A program made the position numbers and the translations under genes. Below are positions 4,632 to 30,784 of a stretch of DNA of 64,000 nucleotides, one piece after another. The stretch covers positions 372,001 to 436,000 of the forward strand of contig NZ_CP013920.1 of NCBI RefSeq assembly GCF_001534665.1, written 5' to 3'. The first letter of the stretch is position 1. Each line of letters starts with the position of its first letter. Origin of the DNA: Candidatus Arsenophonus lipoptenae (GTDB lineage: Bacteria; Pseudomonadota; Gammaproteobacteria; Enterobacterales; Enterobacteriaceae). The notes below the pieces were generated by a model. It had not been told where the DNA came from. It did not search any database and saw only the letters and a list, made by a program, of their open reading frames with translations.

Positions 4632-4847
4632 AAGTATTTAATTACCTTATTTTTTAAAATATTATTTTAAAACATTAATATTTATACTTTAATTATAATA
4701 TTAAGTTAATGGCATTTCTAGTAATTTTTTATTTGTTTTTTATCCTAAAATAATTTATTTGAATTAACACTAACTTATTGATATTTTATTTAGTAATTAA
4801 AATAAATTTTGAATTACTTAATATTTTTTATTTATTGGATATGATTG

Positions 4848-5579
4848 ATGATTAAAAAATTTCCTATTTCTCCTGAAAATGAAGAAAAATTGCTTAATAA
4901 CGCTAAAAATTTAGCAGGATATACAATAAAAGAACTAGCAAATAATATAAATATATCTATGCCTAATAACCTTAAATGTAACAAAGGTTGGATTGGGAAA
5001 TTATTAGAATATTATTTAGGTGCTAGTGGTGGTAATACAGCAAAACAAGACTTTGCTCATATTGGTATCGAATTAAAAACTATTCCTATTAACTATTATG
5101 GTAAACCATTAGAAACAACTTTTATTTGTGTAGTACCTTTAATTAATAATATAGGAATAACATGGATATCTAGTTACTTACGTTATAAATTATCACGTAT
5201 CTTATGGATACCAATTGAAGGTGAACAAAGAATTCCATTAGCAAAACGAAGAATAGCTTCTCCAATATTATGGAGTCCAAGTAAAATCCAAGAACAATGG
5301 TTAAAACAAGATTGGGAAGAATTAATGGATATGATCGTTTTAGGTAATATTGAAGATATTACATCAAGACATGGGCAATTTTTGCAAATACGGCCAAAAG
5401 CAGCTAATAGTAAGTCATTAACAAAAGGAATAGGAAGAAAGGGCCAACAAATAATGACTTTACCTCGTGGATTTTATCTAAAAAAAAATTTTACAGATAT
5501 AATAATATCTCATCATTTTAATTTATGCTCTAATAATCAATATTTAAAAAAAATAAATAGTTATTTTGATATAATTTAA
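4848..5579 (+). CDS. mutH: DNA mismatch repair endonuclease MutH
   Basis: MutH nicks the unmethylated strand at hemimethylated GATC sites when activated by MutS and MutL. The product of about 243 aa is slightly longer than the E. coli protein (229 aa) because of a lysine/asparagine-rich tail. The catalytic set is intact: Glu54, Asp68, Glu75 and Lys77 in the [14 protein letters not shown] region (E. coli E56, D70, E77, K79). The [12 protein letters not shown] and [10 protein letters not shown] segments are also kept. The ATG at 4848 is preferred over the in-frame TTG three bases upstream. Retaining MutH implies that Dam, MutS and MutL persist elsewhere, which is unusual for a strongly reduced symbiont. 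Confidence 0.94.
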
Positions 5580-5996: not shown

Positions 5997-8900
5997 ATGT
6001 TATATATTTATCATTCTAATCGATTAAATGTCCACAAAAACATAATTTCTAATTTAATTAAAAATTATCCATTAATTAATCCAATAGAAAAAGAAATTAT
6101 TTTAGTGCCAAGTCAAATCATGTCGCAATGGTTACAAATAGAACTTGCATACAGTATAGGAGTTGTGGCTAATATTTCTTTTCTTTTACCATCTAATTTT
6201 ATTTGGAATATTTTTATTCAAGTTTTTTCTTCTTTTCCAAAAAAAAATACTTTTAGTAAAGAAAATATGAGTTGGAAATTTATGAAAATTTTACCATCTT
6301 TATTAGATGAACCAGAATTTAAAGAAATTAAACAATATTTAAATAAAGATATAGATAACAGAAAATTACATCAATTATCATACCGTATTGCTTTTTTATT
6401 TAAAAAATATCTAATTTATCGTCCTCAATGGTTAGAATGTTGGTATAATAAACAAATAATTAATGGATTAAGTAATCATCAACATTGGCAAAAAATACTA
6501 TGGCTAAAATTCATTGAATATTATAAAAAACTTAATCAACATCATTGGTATTATACAAATCCTTATAAAAAATTTATAAATACATTAGACTTACCCTTAT
6601 CTTCTAATATTAATTTGCCAAAACGTATATTTATATGTGGTATTATCTCATTTCCTCCAATATATTTAGAATTATTTAATGCTCTTAGTAAACATATAGA
6701 TATTCATTTAATGATGATGAATCAATGTTATAAATATAATTACGACATACAAGAAGGTAATAATTTAAAAACAAATATTGATACATGCGCAAAATATAAT
6801 ATAAATAAAAAAAAATTATTTCTAAATAATCAATTATTAGAATCTTGGGGAAAATTAGGAATTGATAATTTATATTTACTTTCTCAATTTAAGCAATCTA
6901 ACGAAATTCATAAATTTATAGATATACCATCTGATTCTTTATTACATCACATTCAAAGAGATATTCTAAACTCAAAAAATCTAAACAATATTCGTTTAAC
7001 AAAAAATAGCTATTTTAATAGCTTAAGTAAAAGAAAATTAAATAAAAAAGATAAATCATTGACATTTCATTCTTGCCATAGCCCCCAACGTGAACTAGAA
7101 GTTTTACATGATTATTTATTAAAATTATTTGATGAAAATCCAACATTAATACCAAAAGATATTATTGTAATGGTATCTGATATTAATAAGTATATGCCTT
7201 ACATAAAAGCTGTATTTAACAATGTATCTGCTAATCATAGCATTCCCTTTTCTATATCAGCATATAAAATAGAACACGGTGACTACTCTATTCTACAAAC
7301 TTTTATTTTATTACTTAATTTACCTAATATTCGTTTTACAGGAGAAGAAATATTTACATTTTTAGAAATTCCAGCATTAGCTAGAAAATTTTCTATATAT
7401 GAAAATGAATTACCTTTATTAAAAAGATGGATTAATGAATCAGGGATCTGCTGGGGATTAAATAATGAACATATTTCAATGTTAGACTTGCCTATAACAG
7501 AGCAAAATACATGGAGTTTCGGTTTAAATAGAATGATGTTAGGCTATGTTATGCATAACAATATAGGTACTTGGAATAATATTTCCCCTTATAATGAATG
7601 TACAGGACTATCAGCTAAATTAGTTGGTCATCTTGCGGTTTTTATTGATTATTTATCTAACTGGAAAAATATACTAAATAAGAAAAAAAAATTATCAGAA
7701 TGGTTACCTATAGGTCAGATCATATTAAATGATTTTTTTGAAATTAATGAAAATATTGAATCAATATTTATATTTATTTTAAAACAATGGAAAAAGATTA
7801 TTAATACTGGCATATTAGCAAAGTATGAAGATATGGTTTCTATATCAATTATTCGTAATGAATTAGAGAAAAGCTTTAATGATGAAAAAATAAAACAACG
7901 CTTATTTAATGATAAAATTAGTATTTGTAATCTTACATCTATGCATTCTATTCCATTTAAAGTCGTATGTTTATTAGGATTAAATGATCAAATATATCCA
8001 CGTTCAATACCTACATTAAATTTTGATTTAATAACTGATAATCCACAACTTGGTGATCAAAATTATAGAGATAATGATTATTTTTTATTTTTAGAAGCTT
8101 TAAATTCTGCTTCTCAAATATTTTATCTTAGTTATATTGGATATAATATTAATGATAATCAAGAAAATAATCCATCAGTATTAATAAATGAATTACTTGA
8201 TTATATAAGTCAAAATTTTTGCTTAGAAGGTGATGAACATTTAAATATTGATTTCAGTTCTTTTAAAATAAAAAAACATTTAGTTACTAAACATACTAGA
8301 GTGCCATTTTCAATAAAAAATTATTTATCTAATAGTATTCATCAAAGTTACTCAACTGCATGGTTACAAACAGCTAAAAAAAAAGGAAAAAAACAAATAC
8401 TTTTTTGTAAATCATCACTAATGCCAATAGAACAATATTCTAATGAAATATCATTAGAACAGTTAATTAGTTTTTATCGCCATCCGATAAAATATTTTTT
8501 TCAAAAAAGATTAAAAGTTTATTTTTTTAATAAAGAAGTACATTTACCTGAAAATGAACCATTTATTGTAGATAATTTAGAAAAATATAAAATTAATGAA
8601 CAATTAATGAAAGCTATGATTAATGAGGAATCAATAGAAAATCTATTAACAATAGTACGCGCAACCGGAAAATTACCTGTAAAATATTTTGGGCAAATTT
8701 ATTGGGAAAAACAGATTAAAGATATGCAGCCGTTAGTTAATAAAATTAAGATAAATTATCACAAAGTTATTAATAAACCATTTATTATTAAATTTTTAGA
8801 AAATACTTATTTACACGGACAATTAAGTAATTTGCAACAAAATGGTATTATTCGTTATCGACCTGCTATTCTTACAATTAATGATGGTTTATCTCTATGG

Positions 8901-9350
8901 ATAGAGCATCTAATTTTTTGTTTAATTATTGGAGTTGGTGAAAGTTATTATTGGGGGAAAAATAATAGTGAATGGTGTTTCAATTCTATAGATAAATGTC
9001 AAGCTAAATTATATTTACAACAATTAATTAATGGCTATAAAGAAGGTATGAACTCACCATTAGCACTTTTTAATAAAAGTAGTTGGAAATGGTTAATATC
9101 ATGCTACAATAAAAAAAATAATACATTTGATTTTAAATCAGATAAAATATTATCTAAAGCAAACATGTACCTTATACAATCTATACAAGGTACGCATAAT
9201 CAACCAGGTGAAATTCAAGATAGTTATATTAATCGTGCTTTTAGTATAATAGATAATAATCTATTAAAAAAAATTAAAGAAAATGCAATTACTTATTTAT
9301 TTCCTATGATAATTTTTAGAAAAAAAATCTCTTTTAGTAAAGAAGCATAA
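5997..9350 (+). CDS. recC: Exodeoxyribonuclease V gamma subunit RecC
   Basis: RecC is the scaffold and Chi-recognition subunit of the RecBCD helicase-nuclease, which processes double-strand breaks for RecA. The product is 1117 aa against 1122 in E. coli and aligns end to end. The N-terminus MLYIYHSNRL matches E. coli MLRVYHSNRL, and SIPFKVVCLLGLND and the C-terminal YREGMSAPL-like segment (YKEGMNSPLALF) are conserved. It is strongly enriched in Lys, Asn and Ile. In E. coli recC is followed by ptrA, recB and recD; here a 343-bp spacer and ybgI follow, so the partner subunits must be elsewhere or lost. RecC alone has no known enzymatic activity. Confidence 0.95.
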   Translation: MLYIYHSNRLNVHKNIISNLIKNYPLINPIEKEIILVPSQIMSQWLQIELAYSIGVVANISFLLPSNFIWNIFIQVFSSFPKKNTFSKENMSWKFMKILPSLLDEPEFKEIKQYLNKDIDNRKLHQLSYRIAFLFKKYLIYRPQWLECWYNKQIINGLSNHQHWQKILWLKFIEYYKKLNQHHWYYTNPYKKFINTLDLPLSSNINLPKRIFICGIISFPPIYLELFNALSKHIDIHLMMMNQCYKYNYDIQEGNNLKTNIDTCAKYNINKKKLFLNNQLLESWGKLGIDNLYLLSQFKQSNEIHKFIDIPSDSLLHHIQRDILNSKNLNNIRLTKNSYFNSLSKRKLNKKDKSLTFHSCHSPQRELEVLHDYLLKLFDENPTLIPKDIIVMVSDINKYMPYIKAVFNNVSANHSIPFSISAYKIEHGDYSILQTFILLLNLPNIRFTGEEIFTFLEIPALARKFSIYENELPLLKRWINESGICWGLNNEHISMLDLPITEQNTWSFGLNRMMLGYVMHNNIGTWNNISPYNECTGLSAKLVGHLAVFIDYLSNWKNILNKKKKLSEWLPIGQIILNDFFEINENIESIFIFILKQWKKIINTGILAKYEDMVSISIIRNELEKSFNDEKIKQRLFNDKISICNLTSMHSIPFKVVCLLGLNDQIYPRSIPTLNFDLITDNPQLGDQNYRDNDYFLFLEALNSASQIFYLSYIGYNINDNQENNPSVLINELLDYISQNFCLEGDEHLNIDFSSFKIKKHLVTKHTRVPFSIKNYLSNSIHQSYSTAWLQTAKKKGKKQILFCKSSLMPIEQYSNEISLEQLISFYRHPIKYFFQKRLKVYFFNKEVHLPENEPFIVDNLEKYKINEQLMKAMINEESIENLLTIVRATGKLPVKYFGQIYWEKQIKDMQPLVNKIKINYHKVINKPFIIKFLENTYLHGQLSNLQQNGIIRYRPAILTINDGLSLWIEHLIFCLIIGVGESYYWGKNNSEWCFNSIDKCQAKLYLQQLINGYKEGMNSPLALFNKSSWKWLISCYNKKNNTFDFKSDKILSKANMYLIQSIQGTHNQPGEIQDSYINRAFSIIDNNLLKKIKENAITYLFPMIIFRKKISFSKEA

Positions 9351-25485: not shown

Positions 25486-25902
25486 TTATTTTATTTTATT
25501 GCTATTAACGGGTTTTTTAACTATATAATTATCCACTTTTATATTGATATTTTTATTAAAATGATTAAAAGATCTAATATATTTATTTACAATAATGTCA
25601 GATGTTAATTTTTTGTATTCTATATCCTGTGAGTAAATATTACTCTTTTCTAGAGCTTTTATATAAAACCAACGTTCTTTTGGTTTAGGAGGTAGACTAT
25701 TAACTATTCGGGTTTTATTATTAAATAATTCTAAATTTAAAATATATTTATTTGGAATAAAATAATGTAACCTATTCATTAATATAATACAAATGATAAA
25801 TACAATCAAAGAGATTGTCATAAACACTTCGTTTGATTTTTTTTTCTCTAAATATTTTCTTGTAATTGACGTTTTTCGTCTTACATAATCTTTTTGTATC
25901 AC
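25486..25902 (-). CDS. ftsN: Minimal cell-division protein FtsN lacking the SPOR domain
   Basis: FtsN triggers septal peptidoglycan synthesis by FtsWI. This product is 138 aa against 319 in E. coli. What remains is the FtsA-binding tail (MIQKDYVRRK; E. coli MAQRDYVRRS), a membrane helix at about residues 27-43, and the periplasmic NSLPPKPKERWFYIKALE (residues 68-85). The latter matches the E. coli essential peptide, with the key Trp83, Tyr85 and Leu89 present as Trp78, Tyr80 and Leu84. The long Gln-rich linker and the C-terminal SPOR domain are gone. The start is GTG at 25902. Position between hslV and priA supports the identity. Confidence 0.88.
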   Translation of the reverse strand: MIQKDYVRRKTSITRKYLEKKKSNEVFMTISLIVFIICIILMNRLHYFIPNKYILNLELFNNKTRIVNSLPPKPKERWFYIKALEKSNIYSQDIEYKKLTSDIIVNKYIRSFNHFNKNINIKVDNYIVKKPVNSNKIK

Positions 25903-26332: not shown

Positions 26333-28528
26333 CTAATTTTCAATTGGATCAACATCAATATTCCATTTTATTTTTCTACCTTCAGGATATTTCATAATTT
26401 TAGGTAACACACATGAAAAAAACTGTTGTAAATAATAACGAGAAGGATGTTGAAGCAATAATTGCCAATGGAATCGTCCTGCACATTTAAATTTAATTGC
26501 TGGGATAGGTCCTATTAAACAAAGTTTAGAGTCACGCATACTGTGTTGTTCTATATACTGTCGACACTTCTCTAAAAAATTAGCTGCAGATTTGTCATTA
26601 TAATCTTCTGAACGAATAATGATATGATTACTATATGGTGGCAAAGAAACATCACGACGTTCAGCAAGCATTTCTATTGCTAATGCATTATAGCCTTTTT
26701 TAATTAATGTCAATAATAAGGGGTTTTCTGGATAATATGTTTGTAAAATTAATTCACTATTCTTTGTTCGATCAATAATATTATTGGATATTTTAATATA
26801 CAATTGAGCAAATTTTTCTATTGCACGATAATCACTAGCAAAAAGTACAGAATCTATATTAAGTAATGAAACCAGAGTAATGTCAGGACAAATATATCCT
26901 TTAGCCAATATTTGTGTTCCAATTAAAATTCTGGCACCATTTTTATATATAATTTCTAATTTCTTTTTTAATTCTTTCTTATCATAAATAGTATCGCTAT
27001 CAATACGAGTAACTGGGACATCAGGAAAAATATTGTTAATAATTTTTTCTAATTGTTCAGTTCCTAAACCAAGAGTAATTAAACATTTTAAACCACATTT
27101 TAAACATTGTATTGGCATTGGTAATTGATTATTACATCGATGACAATGCATTTGACGATCATAATAGTGTAATGTGTAATAATAATTACAACTTAAACAC
27201 TCTGCAATCCAACTACAATTATGACAAATTAATATTGGCGAATAACCACGACGATTTAAAAACAACAAAACCTTATTATTTGCTAATAAATGATCCTCAA
27301 TACGTTGAATTAATATACGTGATATACCATGTTTTAATGGTTGGCATTTCAAGTCTAACAAATATTGACTTAACTTTTTATTACTTTTAGTTTGTTCAGT
27401 AAGATCTAGCCGTTGATATTTTCCTTCATCAATATTTTTAAGACTTTCTAAAGAAGGTGTCTCTGTACCTAAAATAATGGAAATATCTTCTTTTTTCGCA
27501 CGCATAACTGCAAAATCTCGAGCATGATAACGCCATCCATATTGTTCTTTATATGCATTATCATTCTCTTCATCAAGAATAATTAATCCAAGATTCATAA
27601 ATGAAATCAATACAGCAGATCTTGTACCTATAACGATAGCACTATATCCTTTTTTAGCTCGCAACCAAACTGCTAATCTTTCATTATTATTTAATTTAGA
27701 ATGTAATATGTCAATCGGGGCATTAAATCGTTTTTTAAAAATATCCATAAAATTATAAATTAATTTTATTTCTGGAACTAATAATAATACTTGTTTGCCT
27801 GTTTTTAAAACATTACCAATAACATTTAGATAAACTTTTATTTTACTAAAACTGTTTTTACTAACTAATACAAAAGTAGTAAATTTTAATTTAGAATTTA
27901 GTATTCTTACTACTGTTTTTTGTTCTAGATTAAGTTCTTTTTTTTTAATAAAAAAATAAAAATTAGGATACCAATTTTCCATTTGAGGTTGCACATATAA
28001 CAATTGAATTAAATTTTTCTTTTTTAATAATTTTAAAGTATTTTTACTTAATTCAAATTCATTAATTTGATGATGATAAAGGTTTCTTTCTTGTAATAAT
28101 TTTAGTGCTTTTTGTTGTTTTGGTGATCTTCTTAATTGATTAATAGAAGTATTTTTACCATACGAAGTAACTTGCCATTGCTGCAAAGGAGAAAAAATAG
28201 TACCCTTACCTTGACGCAATAGACTTGGTAATGCATGAAATAATACTTCACCAATAGGATAGTGATAATACTTAGAAGACCAAATAAGTAATGACAATAA
28301 ATTATCGGAGAATAATGATTCGTAATCTAAAATTTCTTTAATAATTTTATATTGTCTATAACTACATTTGACATGTATATTATCTGATAATACAATACCT
28401 AAAATCATACGTTTTCCTAAAGGAACTAATACTCGACGACCTTTGATAGGAGATAAAAAATTACTTGGTAATTGATAATTAAAAGCATGCATTACTGGAA
28501 TAGGTAAGGCAACTTTAACAATATTCAT
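26333..28528 (-). CDS. priA: Primosomal protein PriA with degenerate ATPase motifs
   Basis: PriA recognises forked DNA and loads the DnaB replicase helicase at stalled forks. The frame is 731 aa (E. coli 732) and aligns throughout. All eight zinc cysteines are kept (435, 438, 444, 447, 462, 465, 475, 478), as are FLNRRGYSP, GTQILAKG and the C-terminal domain (LLQHPSRYYLQ). The ATPase motifs are not: Walker A GVTGSGKT has become SKNSFSKI (223-230, only the Lys kept), DEEH is DEEN (319-322), GSATP is GTETP (354-358), and the motif VI VAGRAGR is ISNNIID (580-586). The 3'-OH-binding N-terminal domain is recognisable. ATP hydrolysis and helicase activity are probably lost while DNA binding and primosome assembly could remain. 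Confidence 0.93.
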   Translation of the reverse strand: MNIVKVALPIPVMHAFNYQLPSNFLSPIKGRRVLVPLGKRMILGIVLSDNIHVKCSYRQYKIIKEILDYESLFSDNLLSLLIWSSKYYHYPIGEVLFHALPSLLRQGKGTIFSPLQQWQVTSYGKNTSINQLRRSPKQQKALKLLQERNLYHHQINEFELSKNTLKLLKKKNLIQLLYVQPQMENWYPNFYFFIKKKELNLEQKTVVRILNSKLKFTTFVLVSKNSFSKIKVYLNVIGNVLKTGKQVLLLVPEIKLIYNFMDIFKKRFNAPIDILHSKLNNNERLAVWLRAKKGYSAIVIGTRSAVLISFMNLGLIILDEENDNAYKEQYGWRYHARDFAVMRAKKEDISIILGTETPSLESLKNIDEGKYQRLDLTEQTKSNKKLSQYLLDLKCQPLKHGISRILIQRIEDHLLANNKVLLFLNRRGYSPILICHNCSWIAECLSCNYYYTLHYYDRQMHCHRCNNQLPMPIQCLKCGLKCLITLGLGTEQLEKIINNIFPDVPVTRIDSDTIYDKKELKKKLEIIYKNGARILIGTQILAKGYICPDITLVSLLNIDSVLFASDYRAIEKFAQLYIKISNNIIDRTKNSELILQTYYPENPLLLTLIKKGYNALAIEMLAERRDVSLPPYSNHIIIRSEDYNDKSAANFLEKCRQYIEQHSMRDSKLCLIGPIPAIKFKCAGRFHWQLLLQHPSRYYLQQFFSCVLPKIMKYPEGRKIKWNIDVDPIEN

Positions 28529-29401: not shown

Positions 29402-30784
29402 ATGAATATAGTGATAACAGAAAAAACAAAATATAACCATCGTCAATTACATAAATTTGGTGGAAGTAGCTTAACTAATGTACAAGGTTATAGAATGGTC
29501 GCTAATATCATGGCAAATTATAGTAAATCAGGTGATTTAGTAGTTGTATCCGCTGCTGGGACAACTACTAACAAATTAATAAATTGGATTAATTATAGTC
29601 ATACTAATCATATTGTAGCTAATAAATTATTAAAATCTATTTCAAATTATCAACAAGAACTAATAGATGGCTTATTACCAAATAATAAAAGTAAAATATT
29701 AAAAATGGCGTTTTTAAAAGATCTCAAAAAATTAAATAACTTAATAAATAAATCAATTAATAATGATATTTATTCAGAAATTGTTGGTCATGGAGAAATT
29801 TGGTCTGCACGTTTAATGTCCGCAGTGTTAGAAAATGCTGGTTTATCAAGCTATTGGTTAGATGCAAGACTTTTTTTACGTACAGAATTTATTGGTCAAC
29901 CAAAAATTGATGAAAATTTATCGCGCCCATTATTACAACATTTTTTACAAAAATATCCTAATAAATGGCTAGTAATTACTGGCTTTATTGCACAAAATAA
30001 ACAAGGTAGAATGGTATTATTAGGACGTAATGGAAGTGATTATTCAGCAACACAAATAGGAGCATTAGCAAAAGTTAATAAAGTCACTATTTGGAGTGAT
30101 GTTACTGGTATATATAACGCTGATCCACGCAAAGTTAAAGATGCTTCTTTACTGCCGATCTTGGGATTTAATGAAGCTAATGAACTAGCACGTTTATCAA
30201 CACCAGTACTTCATCCTAGAACATTGCAACCATTAGCTATTAATAATATTGATTTACAACTAAAATGTAGTTATAACCCAGAACAAGGATCAACAAAAAT
30301 AGGGCATTTCTTCACTCAAGATACTGGAGTTAAAATAATCACTAGTCATGAAGATATTTGTCTTATAGAACTATACCTTATGAATCGACAAAATTTTTTC
30401 CAGACTTATAAGAATATAAATTTATTTCTTAATAAAAATCAAATACTGCCGTTAGCTACTGGATTAAATTCAGATAAAAAATTAATTCAATTATGTTATA
30501 CATCAGAAATTGCTAATGCTAGCCTAAATTTATTACAACAAGTACAATTAGAAAAAATTGTATTACGTCATCATTTTGCCATTATTGCTATAATAGGATC
30601 TGATATTATAAAAAATTCAATAAATACTCATCTATTTTATCAACAATTAAAAGATCAACCTGTTGAATTTATTTGGCATTCTAATAAAGGAATAAGTTTA
30701 GTGGCAGTTTTACATACAACTAAAACATCTAATTTAGTTCGTTTACTACATCAAAGTTTATTTAGAAATAAACAATATTATTAA
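29402..30784 (+). CDS. metL: Aspartokinase II domain of MetL, homoserine dehydrogenase domain lost
   Basis: Aspartokinase phosphorylates aspartate, the first step toward lysine/diaminopimelate, threonine and methionine. The 460-aa product matches only the N-terminal half of the 810-aa bifunctional E. coli MetL: LHKFGGSSLTNVQGY at the N-terminus, VGHGEIWSARLMSAVL, LLGRNGSDYSATQIGALA, then the regulatory region ending LHQSLFRNKQYY. In E. coli the matching LHQSVFRAEKR runs straight into the NAD-binding start of homoserine dehydrogenase. The cut therefore falls at the domain boundary. E. coli AKII is the isozyme not inhibited by lysine or threonine. Gene order priA-rpmE-metL is that of E. coli minus metJ and metB. 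Confidence 0.92.
   Translation: MNIVITEKTKYNHRQLHKFGGSSLTNVQGYRMVANIMANYSKSGDLVVVSAAGTTTNKLINWINYSHTNHIVANKLLKSISNYQQELIDGLLPNNKSKILKMAFLKDLKKLNNLINKSINNDIYSEIVGHGEIWSARLMSAVLENAGLSSYWLDARLFLRTEFIGQPKIDENLSRPLLQHFLQKYPNKWLVITGFIAQNKQGRMVLLGRNGSDYSATQIGALAKVNKVTIWSDVTGIYNADPRKVKDASLLPILGFNEANELARLSTPVLHPRTLQPLAINNIDLQLKCSYNPEQGSTKIGHFFTQDTGVKIITSHEDICLIELYLMNRQNFFQTYKNINLFLNKNQILPLATGLNSDKKLIQLCYTSEIANASLNLLQQVQLEKIVLRHHFAIIAIIGSDIIKNSINTHLFYQQLKDQPVEFIWHSNKGISLVAVLHTTKTSNLVRLLHQSLFRNKQYY

Follow-up and report, generated by a model that had tools for sequence, protein, structure and literature searches.

The purpose of the motor of the replication restart protein PriA is a puzzle: E. coli survives without it, yet it is almost universally conserved (PMC4504706). 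The locus described here raises the question of what PriA does where the motor has been lost in nature and the rest of the protein has been kept, and whether such a gene is still kept for a task or is a remnant in decay. It lies in a window of 64,000 nucleotides, positions 372,001-436,000 of the single 836,724-bp contig of Candidatus Arsenophonus lipoptenae; Ca. Arsenophonus lipopteni has been described from the deer ked Lipoptena cervi, in which it lives as a symbiont (PMC5027103).

Domains and motifs of the window PriA

The priA frame runs from an ATG start to its stop codon over 731 codons, with no internal stops. Its parts are as follows:

26333..28528, minus strand: priA, full-length replication restart protein of 731 aa, predicted to be ATPase-dead (ORF, homology, AlphaFold2, fold match)
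28229..28519, minus strand: 3'-DNA-binding domain (3'BD, aa 4-100), intact (Pfam PF17764, E 2e-22)
28004..28192, minus strand: winged-helix domain (WH, aa 113-175), intact (Pfam PF21213, E 1.5e-20)
27839..27862, minus strand: motif I / Walker A (aa 223-230), destroyed, SKNSFSKI for GITGSGKT (alignment)
27563..27574, minus strand: motif II (aa 319-322), DEEN for DEEH (alignment)
27455..27469, minus strand: motif III (aa 354-358), GTETP for GTATP/GSATP (alignment)
27242..27256, minus strand: NRRGY segment (aa 425-429), intact (alignment)
27095..27226, minus strand: zinc-binding region (aa 435-478), all eight cysteines present (alignment)
26882..26920, minus strand: motif V (aa 537-549), GTQILAKGYICPD, core kept, HHF lost (alignment)
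26768..26794, minus strand: motif VI (aa 579-587), destroyed, SNNIIDRTK for SGRAGRAGK (alignment)
26348..26641, minus strand: C-terminal domain (CTD, aa 630-727), intact (Pfam PF18074, E 6e-18)

By sequence, fold and neighbourhood, the protein is an orthologue of E. coli PriA. It matches the E. coli-type PriA of PDB 4nl4 from end to end (phmmer E 1e-227, residues 2-729) and passes the NCBIfam equivalog model NF004065 (922.8 bits, cut-off 858) as well as TIGR00595 (485.9 bits, cut-off 230). The 3'BD, WH, two helicase lobes, zinc region and CTD follow one another in order across its full length, and the gene order hslVU-ftsN-priA is that of E. coli. The AlphaFold2 model (mean pLDDT 85, pTM 0.81) finds its best Foldseek match in fork-bound E. 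coli PriA (8fak; TM 0.84/0.96, rmsd 2.6), and the top matches are all PriA. Scored against PRK14873, which we take to be the actinobacterial PriA type, the protein reaches 112.8 bits (cut-off 812), and it is a proteobacterial PriA instead. Rocha et al. described the actinobacterial protein as a 'smaller and very divergent' putative orthologue (PMC1193525).

The motifs were compared in an alignment with 35 relatives. Within motif I, Lys229 is the sole P-loop residue left. The eight zinc cysteines (435, 438, 444, 447, 462, 465, 475 and 478) are invariant across 32/32 aligned homologues and are all found here, although the short Pfam CRR model PF18319 does not score on the protein. The 3'-DNA-binding domain retains 16 of its 18 near-invariant residues, and the C-terminal domain is the least diverged of all. 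The combination of intact motifs that marks an active SF2 3'-5' helicase (Walker A, DEEH, GSATP, GRAGR) is missing, and motifs I and II are degenerate, which is the sequence pattern of a Deinococcus-type pseudohelicase. With the P-loop and motif VI, the arginine finger, both lost, the window protein is not expected to bind ATP productively or to unwind DNA.

The preliminary description of this DNA had proposed an unbroken frame corresponding to PriA from end to end, with motifs I, II, III and VI lost or damaged and with the eight zinc cysteines and the winged and C-terminal segments kept; all of this is confirmed. Its statement that motifs IV and V are kept holds for the NRRGY segment and for the motif V core (GTQxLAKG), but the invariant HHF of motif V has become YIC. 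Its list of losses was correct and incomplete: the invariant TPQT after motif Ia is replaced by IYNF, and the Glu following Walker A is also missing. A second intact priA copy, which would have spoken against its interpretation, was not found in the 836,724-bp genome. Paired or compensated frameshifts behind motifs I and VI were rejected, as the codon alignments show point substitutions. Sequencing error was likewise rejected, given dozens of scattered, codon-consistent changes and a 40x Pilon-checked assembly (PMC5027103).

The preliminary description knew of no such natural variant. One had in fact been reported in 2015, the naturally occurring pseudohelicase PriA of D. radiodurans (PMC4504706). 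That protein has no ATPase activity, near-normal fork affinity and binds DnaB, in a genome without PriB and DnaT (PMC4504706). The window PriA resembles it in having lost its ATPase motifs within a genome that has no PriB or DnaT. The two belong to different phyla and lost their motifs independently; in D. radiodurans there is biochemistry, with DNA binding kept and reloading of the replisome deduced, whereas the window protein likened to it is known from its sequence. The P-loop lysine is changed to arginine in D. radiodurans PriA, while the same lysine is the only P-loop residue left in the window PriA, which, unlike its counterpart, keeps the full proteobacterial domain set. Next to the natural PriA pseudohelicase known from Deinococcus-Thermus, the window protein is a further, predicted one, independent in origin and degenerate to a greater degree.

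Substitution pattern of the gene

Losses are distributed unevenly along the protein. With near-invariance defined on 32 intact homologues, 18 of 46 near-invariant residues are lost from the ATPase motifs, against 5 of 50 from the DNA-binding (3'BD, WH), zinc and C-terminal domains (Fisher p = 0.0015). The other near-invariant residues of the helicase lobes are intermediate (21/90 lost; p = 0.07 versus the motifs). By this measure, the fork-recognition domains (3'BD, WH, CTD) and the zinc domain are kept under selection. Four other P-loop proteins within the window have perfect P-loops, and therefore the loss is specific to priA.

Neutral evolution was simulated from an intact Arsenophonus priA. 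At the observed third-position divergence, none of 120 runs kept an open frame, and each acquired at least 33 stops, bearing out the earlier argument that neutral decay would have created stops. A quarter of that divergence already produced at least 8 stops, and at half of it a mean of 3.8 of the 8 zinc cysteines survived. Compared with priA of another Arsenophonus genome (G005), the window gene differs by 0.30/0.16/0.40 at codon positions 1/2/3, where neutrality would predict equal values. Scaled to the distance that separates two less-reduced Arsenophonus, the rates are 6.8 for PriA, 6.7 for dnaA, 7.0 for yidC, 4.9 for gyrB and 4.8 for dnaN; gyrB, dnaN and aspartokinase (4.6-4.9) lie somewhat below PriA. 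Since its rate matches those of dnaA and yidC, priA as a whole is not unusually relaxed, and the whole-gene relaxation that the preliminary description had named as a counter-indication was not seen.

Neither the frame breaks nor the neutral substitution pattern of a pseudogene is present. From the open frame and the substitution pattern, rather than from a dN/dS between close sisters, we infer that the window priA is still under selection after loss of its ATPase. The earlier proposal of a helicase-free PriA kept under selection is supported, with the loss of the helicase read from the sequence, and the parallel symbiont cases described below strongly reinforce it. The gene is a clear case of a catalytic core decaying inside a selected protein, instead of gene loss.

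PriA without ATPase motifs in other symbiont genomes

We surveyed 392 genomes of the family and examined 52 reduced ones closely, a set picked for small size or weak match, so that frequencies within it are biased. Labels beginning with G, g and L denote genomes, GTDB genera and loci, respectively, and G000 is the window's genome. Unexpectedly, single-frame PriA predicted to be ATPase-dead was found in 28 cases, spread over 11 GTDB genera of the family. Besides the window, full-length frames without ATPase motifs occur in g6 (four genomes), G023, G089, G094 and g112. The PriA of G089, assigned by its plasmid to Ca. Ishikawaella capsulata, is among those classed as ATPase-dead, as are those of the Buchnera-type genera g97, g76, g115 (assigned by plasmids), g116 and g144. 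The PriAs of Buchnera aphidicola and Ca. Ishikawaella capsulata share with the window protein the loss of motifs I, III and VI, the eight zinc cysteines and a genome without PriB, and their frames are mostly full-length. They differ in their partners: both symbionts retain DnaT and DnaC, whereas Arsenophonus has DciA instead.

Nine further PriAs lack the ATPase motifs, five with one frame break and four in recoded genomes. The five with one break (L077, L101, L102, L103 and L104, in G155, G217, G062, G195 and G235) are otherwise open, and the split lies near the N-terminal third; these could be cases of real splitting, poly-A slippage or early decay. The recoded genomes (260-305 kb) encode PriAs of 598-616 aa with eight zinc cysteines. 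Their frames (L105-L108, in G315, G242, G375 and G133) use TGA and never TGG, and several of the TGA codons align to Trp; on this evidence TGA is read as Trp in these four genomes. The same reassignment has been reported for the symbiont Stammera (PMC8629427).

The set of eight zinc cysteines is complete in 37/37 ATPase-dead homologues, even at 24-35% identity to the window protein. The dN/dS values among the dead PriAs are 0.15-0.27 in g6, 0.20-0.49 in g115, 0.31-0.56 in g112 and 0.50-0.66 in g97, where synonymous sites are near saturation; genes of equal composition evolved neutrally in simulation reach 0.9-1.2. The dead PriA copies evolve under purifying selection (dN/dS 0.15-0.66).

Within Arsenophonus, the motifs are intact in five less-reduced genomes and in the 663-kb genome G004, and the PriA of the 853-kb genome G002 is half-decayed (GINGSDKT, GTETP, SRRIGRSGK). 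In a PriA tree built with the motif columns removed, the window protein groups with intact relatives inside the Arsenophonus clade (100/100), and its motif loss is therefore separate from that in Buchnera and others. This tree requires at least 2 changes for the fully dead state alone and 5 if the half-decayed state is scored separately, a count of origins that is a rough minimum because long branches meet in the tree. The resolution of a RecA tree was too poor for counting origins.

In the open-access literature, we found no papers on the recurrence of symbiont PriA as pseudohelicases; published symbiont genome papers score priA merely as present or absent. Automatic annotation would label the window protein a 'replication restart helicase', as it passes TIGR00595; such a label is probably mistaken for it and for the PriAs of dozens of other symbiont genomes.

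Loading partners and possible role

ATPase-dead E. coli PriA can assemble primosomes, and the preliminary description drew support from the corresponding Walker A mutants. This analogy fails at the partner. In E. coli the PriA-PriB route runs without the helicase, which the PriA-PriC route needs; a PriA whose helicase is dead acts through PriB, and cells that carry priA300 (K230R) and also lack priB are severely impaired (PMC9713433). In G000, neither PriB, PriC nor DnaC was found above the cut-off, and DnaT was not recognisable there or in any other Arsenophonus genome (G000-G008). No chromosomal DnaC is evident in these genomes, and PriB is still found in G002 and G004. Matches to PF01695 in G000 were rejected as DnaC, being DnaA and other AAA+ proteins. 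RecA is absent from G000 and G002 and present in G004. The E. coli PriB-DnaT hand-off cannot run in G000, because PriB, PriC, DnaT and DnaC are all absent.

The preliminary description had listed loss of these partner genes as a refutation. The loss is complete, but the idea withstands it, because the genome encodes the other DnaB operator, DciA (G000:C1:672681-672920, PF05258 E 7e-12, in a 159-aa ORF). DciA also occurs in control genomes of bacteria related to D. radiodurans. By gene content, DnaB loading in the genus Arsenophonus seems to rely on DciA, and by analogy with Deinococcus, G000 more probably uses a PriA-DnaB(-DciA) route than the PriB-DnaT hand-off. A full-length RecC, a RecBCD component, is encoded in the window, in a genome without recA:

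5997..9350, plus strand: recC, 1117 aa, partner in fork and end processing (Pfam Exonuc_V_gamma 5e-82, RecC_C 3e-54)

Co-occurrence was tested in 51 genomes of clear status, with no correction for phylogeny. A loading set of DnaT plus DnaC, or of DciA, is present in 21 of 22 genomes with dead PriA versus 3 of 15 without priA (p = 3e-6); with one genome per genus, the figures are 15/15 and 3/15 (p = 1e-5). Among genomes with DnaC, DnaT accompanies dead PriA in 15/15 cases versus 2/8 where priA is gone. recA is found in each of the 11 reduced genomes whose PriA is intact and is missing from 17 of the 25 with dead or half-decayed PriA (p = 1.5e-4; one per genus, p = 0.001). No recA-less genome among those examined has an intact PriA. 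Dead PriA and recA occur together in g6, Ishikawaella, G155, G094 and g112; recA loss as the sole trigger was rejected on account of these five lineages.

We consider it fairly probable that the window protein is a natural PriA pseudohelicase, an ATP-independent landing platform that, at a stalled or collapsed fork, would bind the branch and the 3' end of the leading strand. We infer a role in DnaB loading, in which DnaB would be reloaded there with its operator DciA, PriA handing DnaB(-DciA) on directly. The motor would have become dispensable once homologous recombination (recA) and the PriC pathway were lost in the lineage, because forks needing D-loop processing or lagging-strand unwinding would be rare without RecA and PriC, and because RecBCD would trim reversed forks, leaving restart to forks that need no remodelling. 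The same motor loss has taken place in parallel in other insect symbionts.

Stepwise decay, in which the ATPase motifs went first, the rest is to follow and the protein has little or no function, is quite unlikely. It would agree with the complete loss of priA from many reduced relatives (48 of the 392 family genomes have no match), with remnants carrying stops in G126, G147 and G256, and with the half-decayed gene of G002 in the same genus. True decay, however, shreds the frame, as in the G026 pseudogene between nth and tyrS, of which short fragments are left, whereas the window frame is open as in none of the neutral runs and its losses are concentrated in the ATPase motifs; the conserved zinc cysteines and the dN/dS well below 1 of distant dead PriAs point the same way. 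Marginally less unlikely is a role other than loading, with PriA acting as a scaffold that binds DNA structures or SSB, or competing with other helicases at forks and so limiting them. In its favour, strict conservation covers DNA binding, the zinc region and the CTD and not any proven loader contact, and the E. coli partners are absent from G000. Against it stands the co-retention, and joint loss, of dead PriA with DnaT and DnaC or with DciA.

We think it very doubtful that the motor was lost adaptively, an active helicase becoming harmful once RecA, RuvAB and RecG go, so that inactivation was selected and not just tolerated. E. coli priA300 does suppress both the DNA loss seen in recG ruvAB cells and the poor recombination of recG mutants (PMC4752480), and the want of intact motifs in the recA-less genomes examined would fit, but dead PriA occurs in recA-positive genomes too, and g6 has a RecG-like frame (recognised by eye) beside priA. 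We give next to no credence to an altered ATPase that still works via non-canonical residues around the retained lysine. Still present are Lys229, the core of motif V and, in motif II, two acidic residues; the P-loop glycines, the Thr/Ser ligand and both GRAGR arginines are all gone, the motif II His and motif III of the nucleotide pocket are changed, and in E. coli PriA the single change K230R abolishes the ATPase (PMC4504706).

To return to the ATP-independent platform, the symbionts amount to natural replicates in which the motor has been removed and the rest kept, making the two PriA functions separable by comparative genomics. They suggest that the task PriA cannot give up is fork recognition together with help in loading the replication machinery. 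It is possible, and we offer this tentatively, that insect symbionts repeatedly and independently turn PriA into an ATP-independent, fork-recognising and DnaB-loading platform after recombination is lost. The motor would then serve recombination-coupled (RecA) and PriC-dependent restart, and the zinc region, 3'BD and CTD would be indispensable even in recoded genomes of about 300 kb.

Other genes of the window include the following:

25486..25902, minus strand: frame of 138 aa in the ftsN position between hslV and priA (~45% identity to the matching Arsenophonus frame)
29402..30784, plus strand: stand-alone aspartokinase part, 460 aa (Pfam AA_kinase only)
4845..5579, plus strand: MutH (domain search)

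The 138-aa frame looks like the N-terminal part of FtsN. Pfam gave no domain for it, SPOR included, so that FtsN seems to be cut down to its N-terminus and membrane segment. The 460-aa frame probably corresponds to the kinase half of an aspartokinase-homoserine dehydrogenase fusion. MutH has been reported lost in Moranella endobia, whereas it is retained in the reduced genome of the window.
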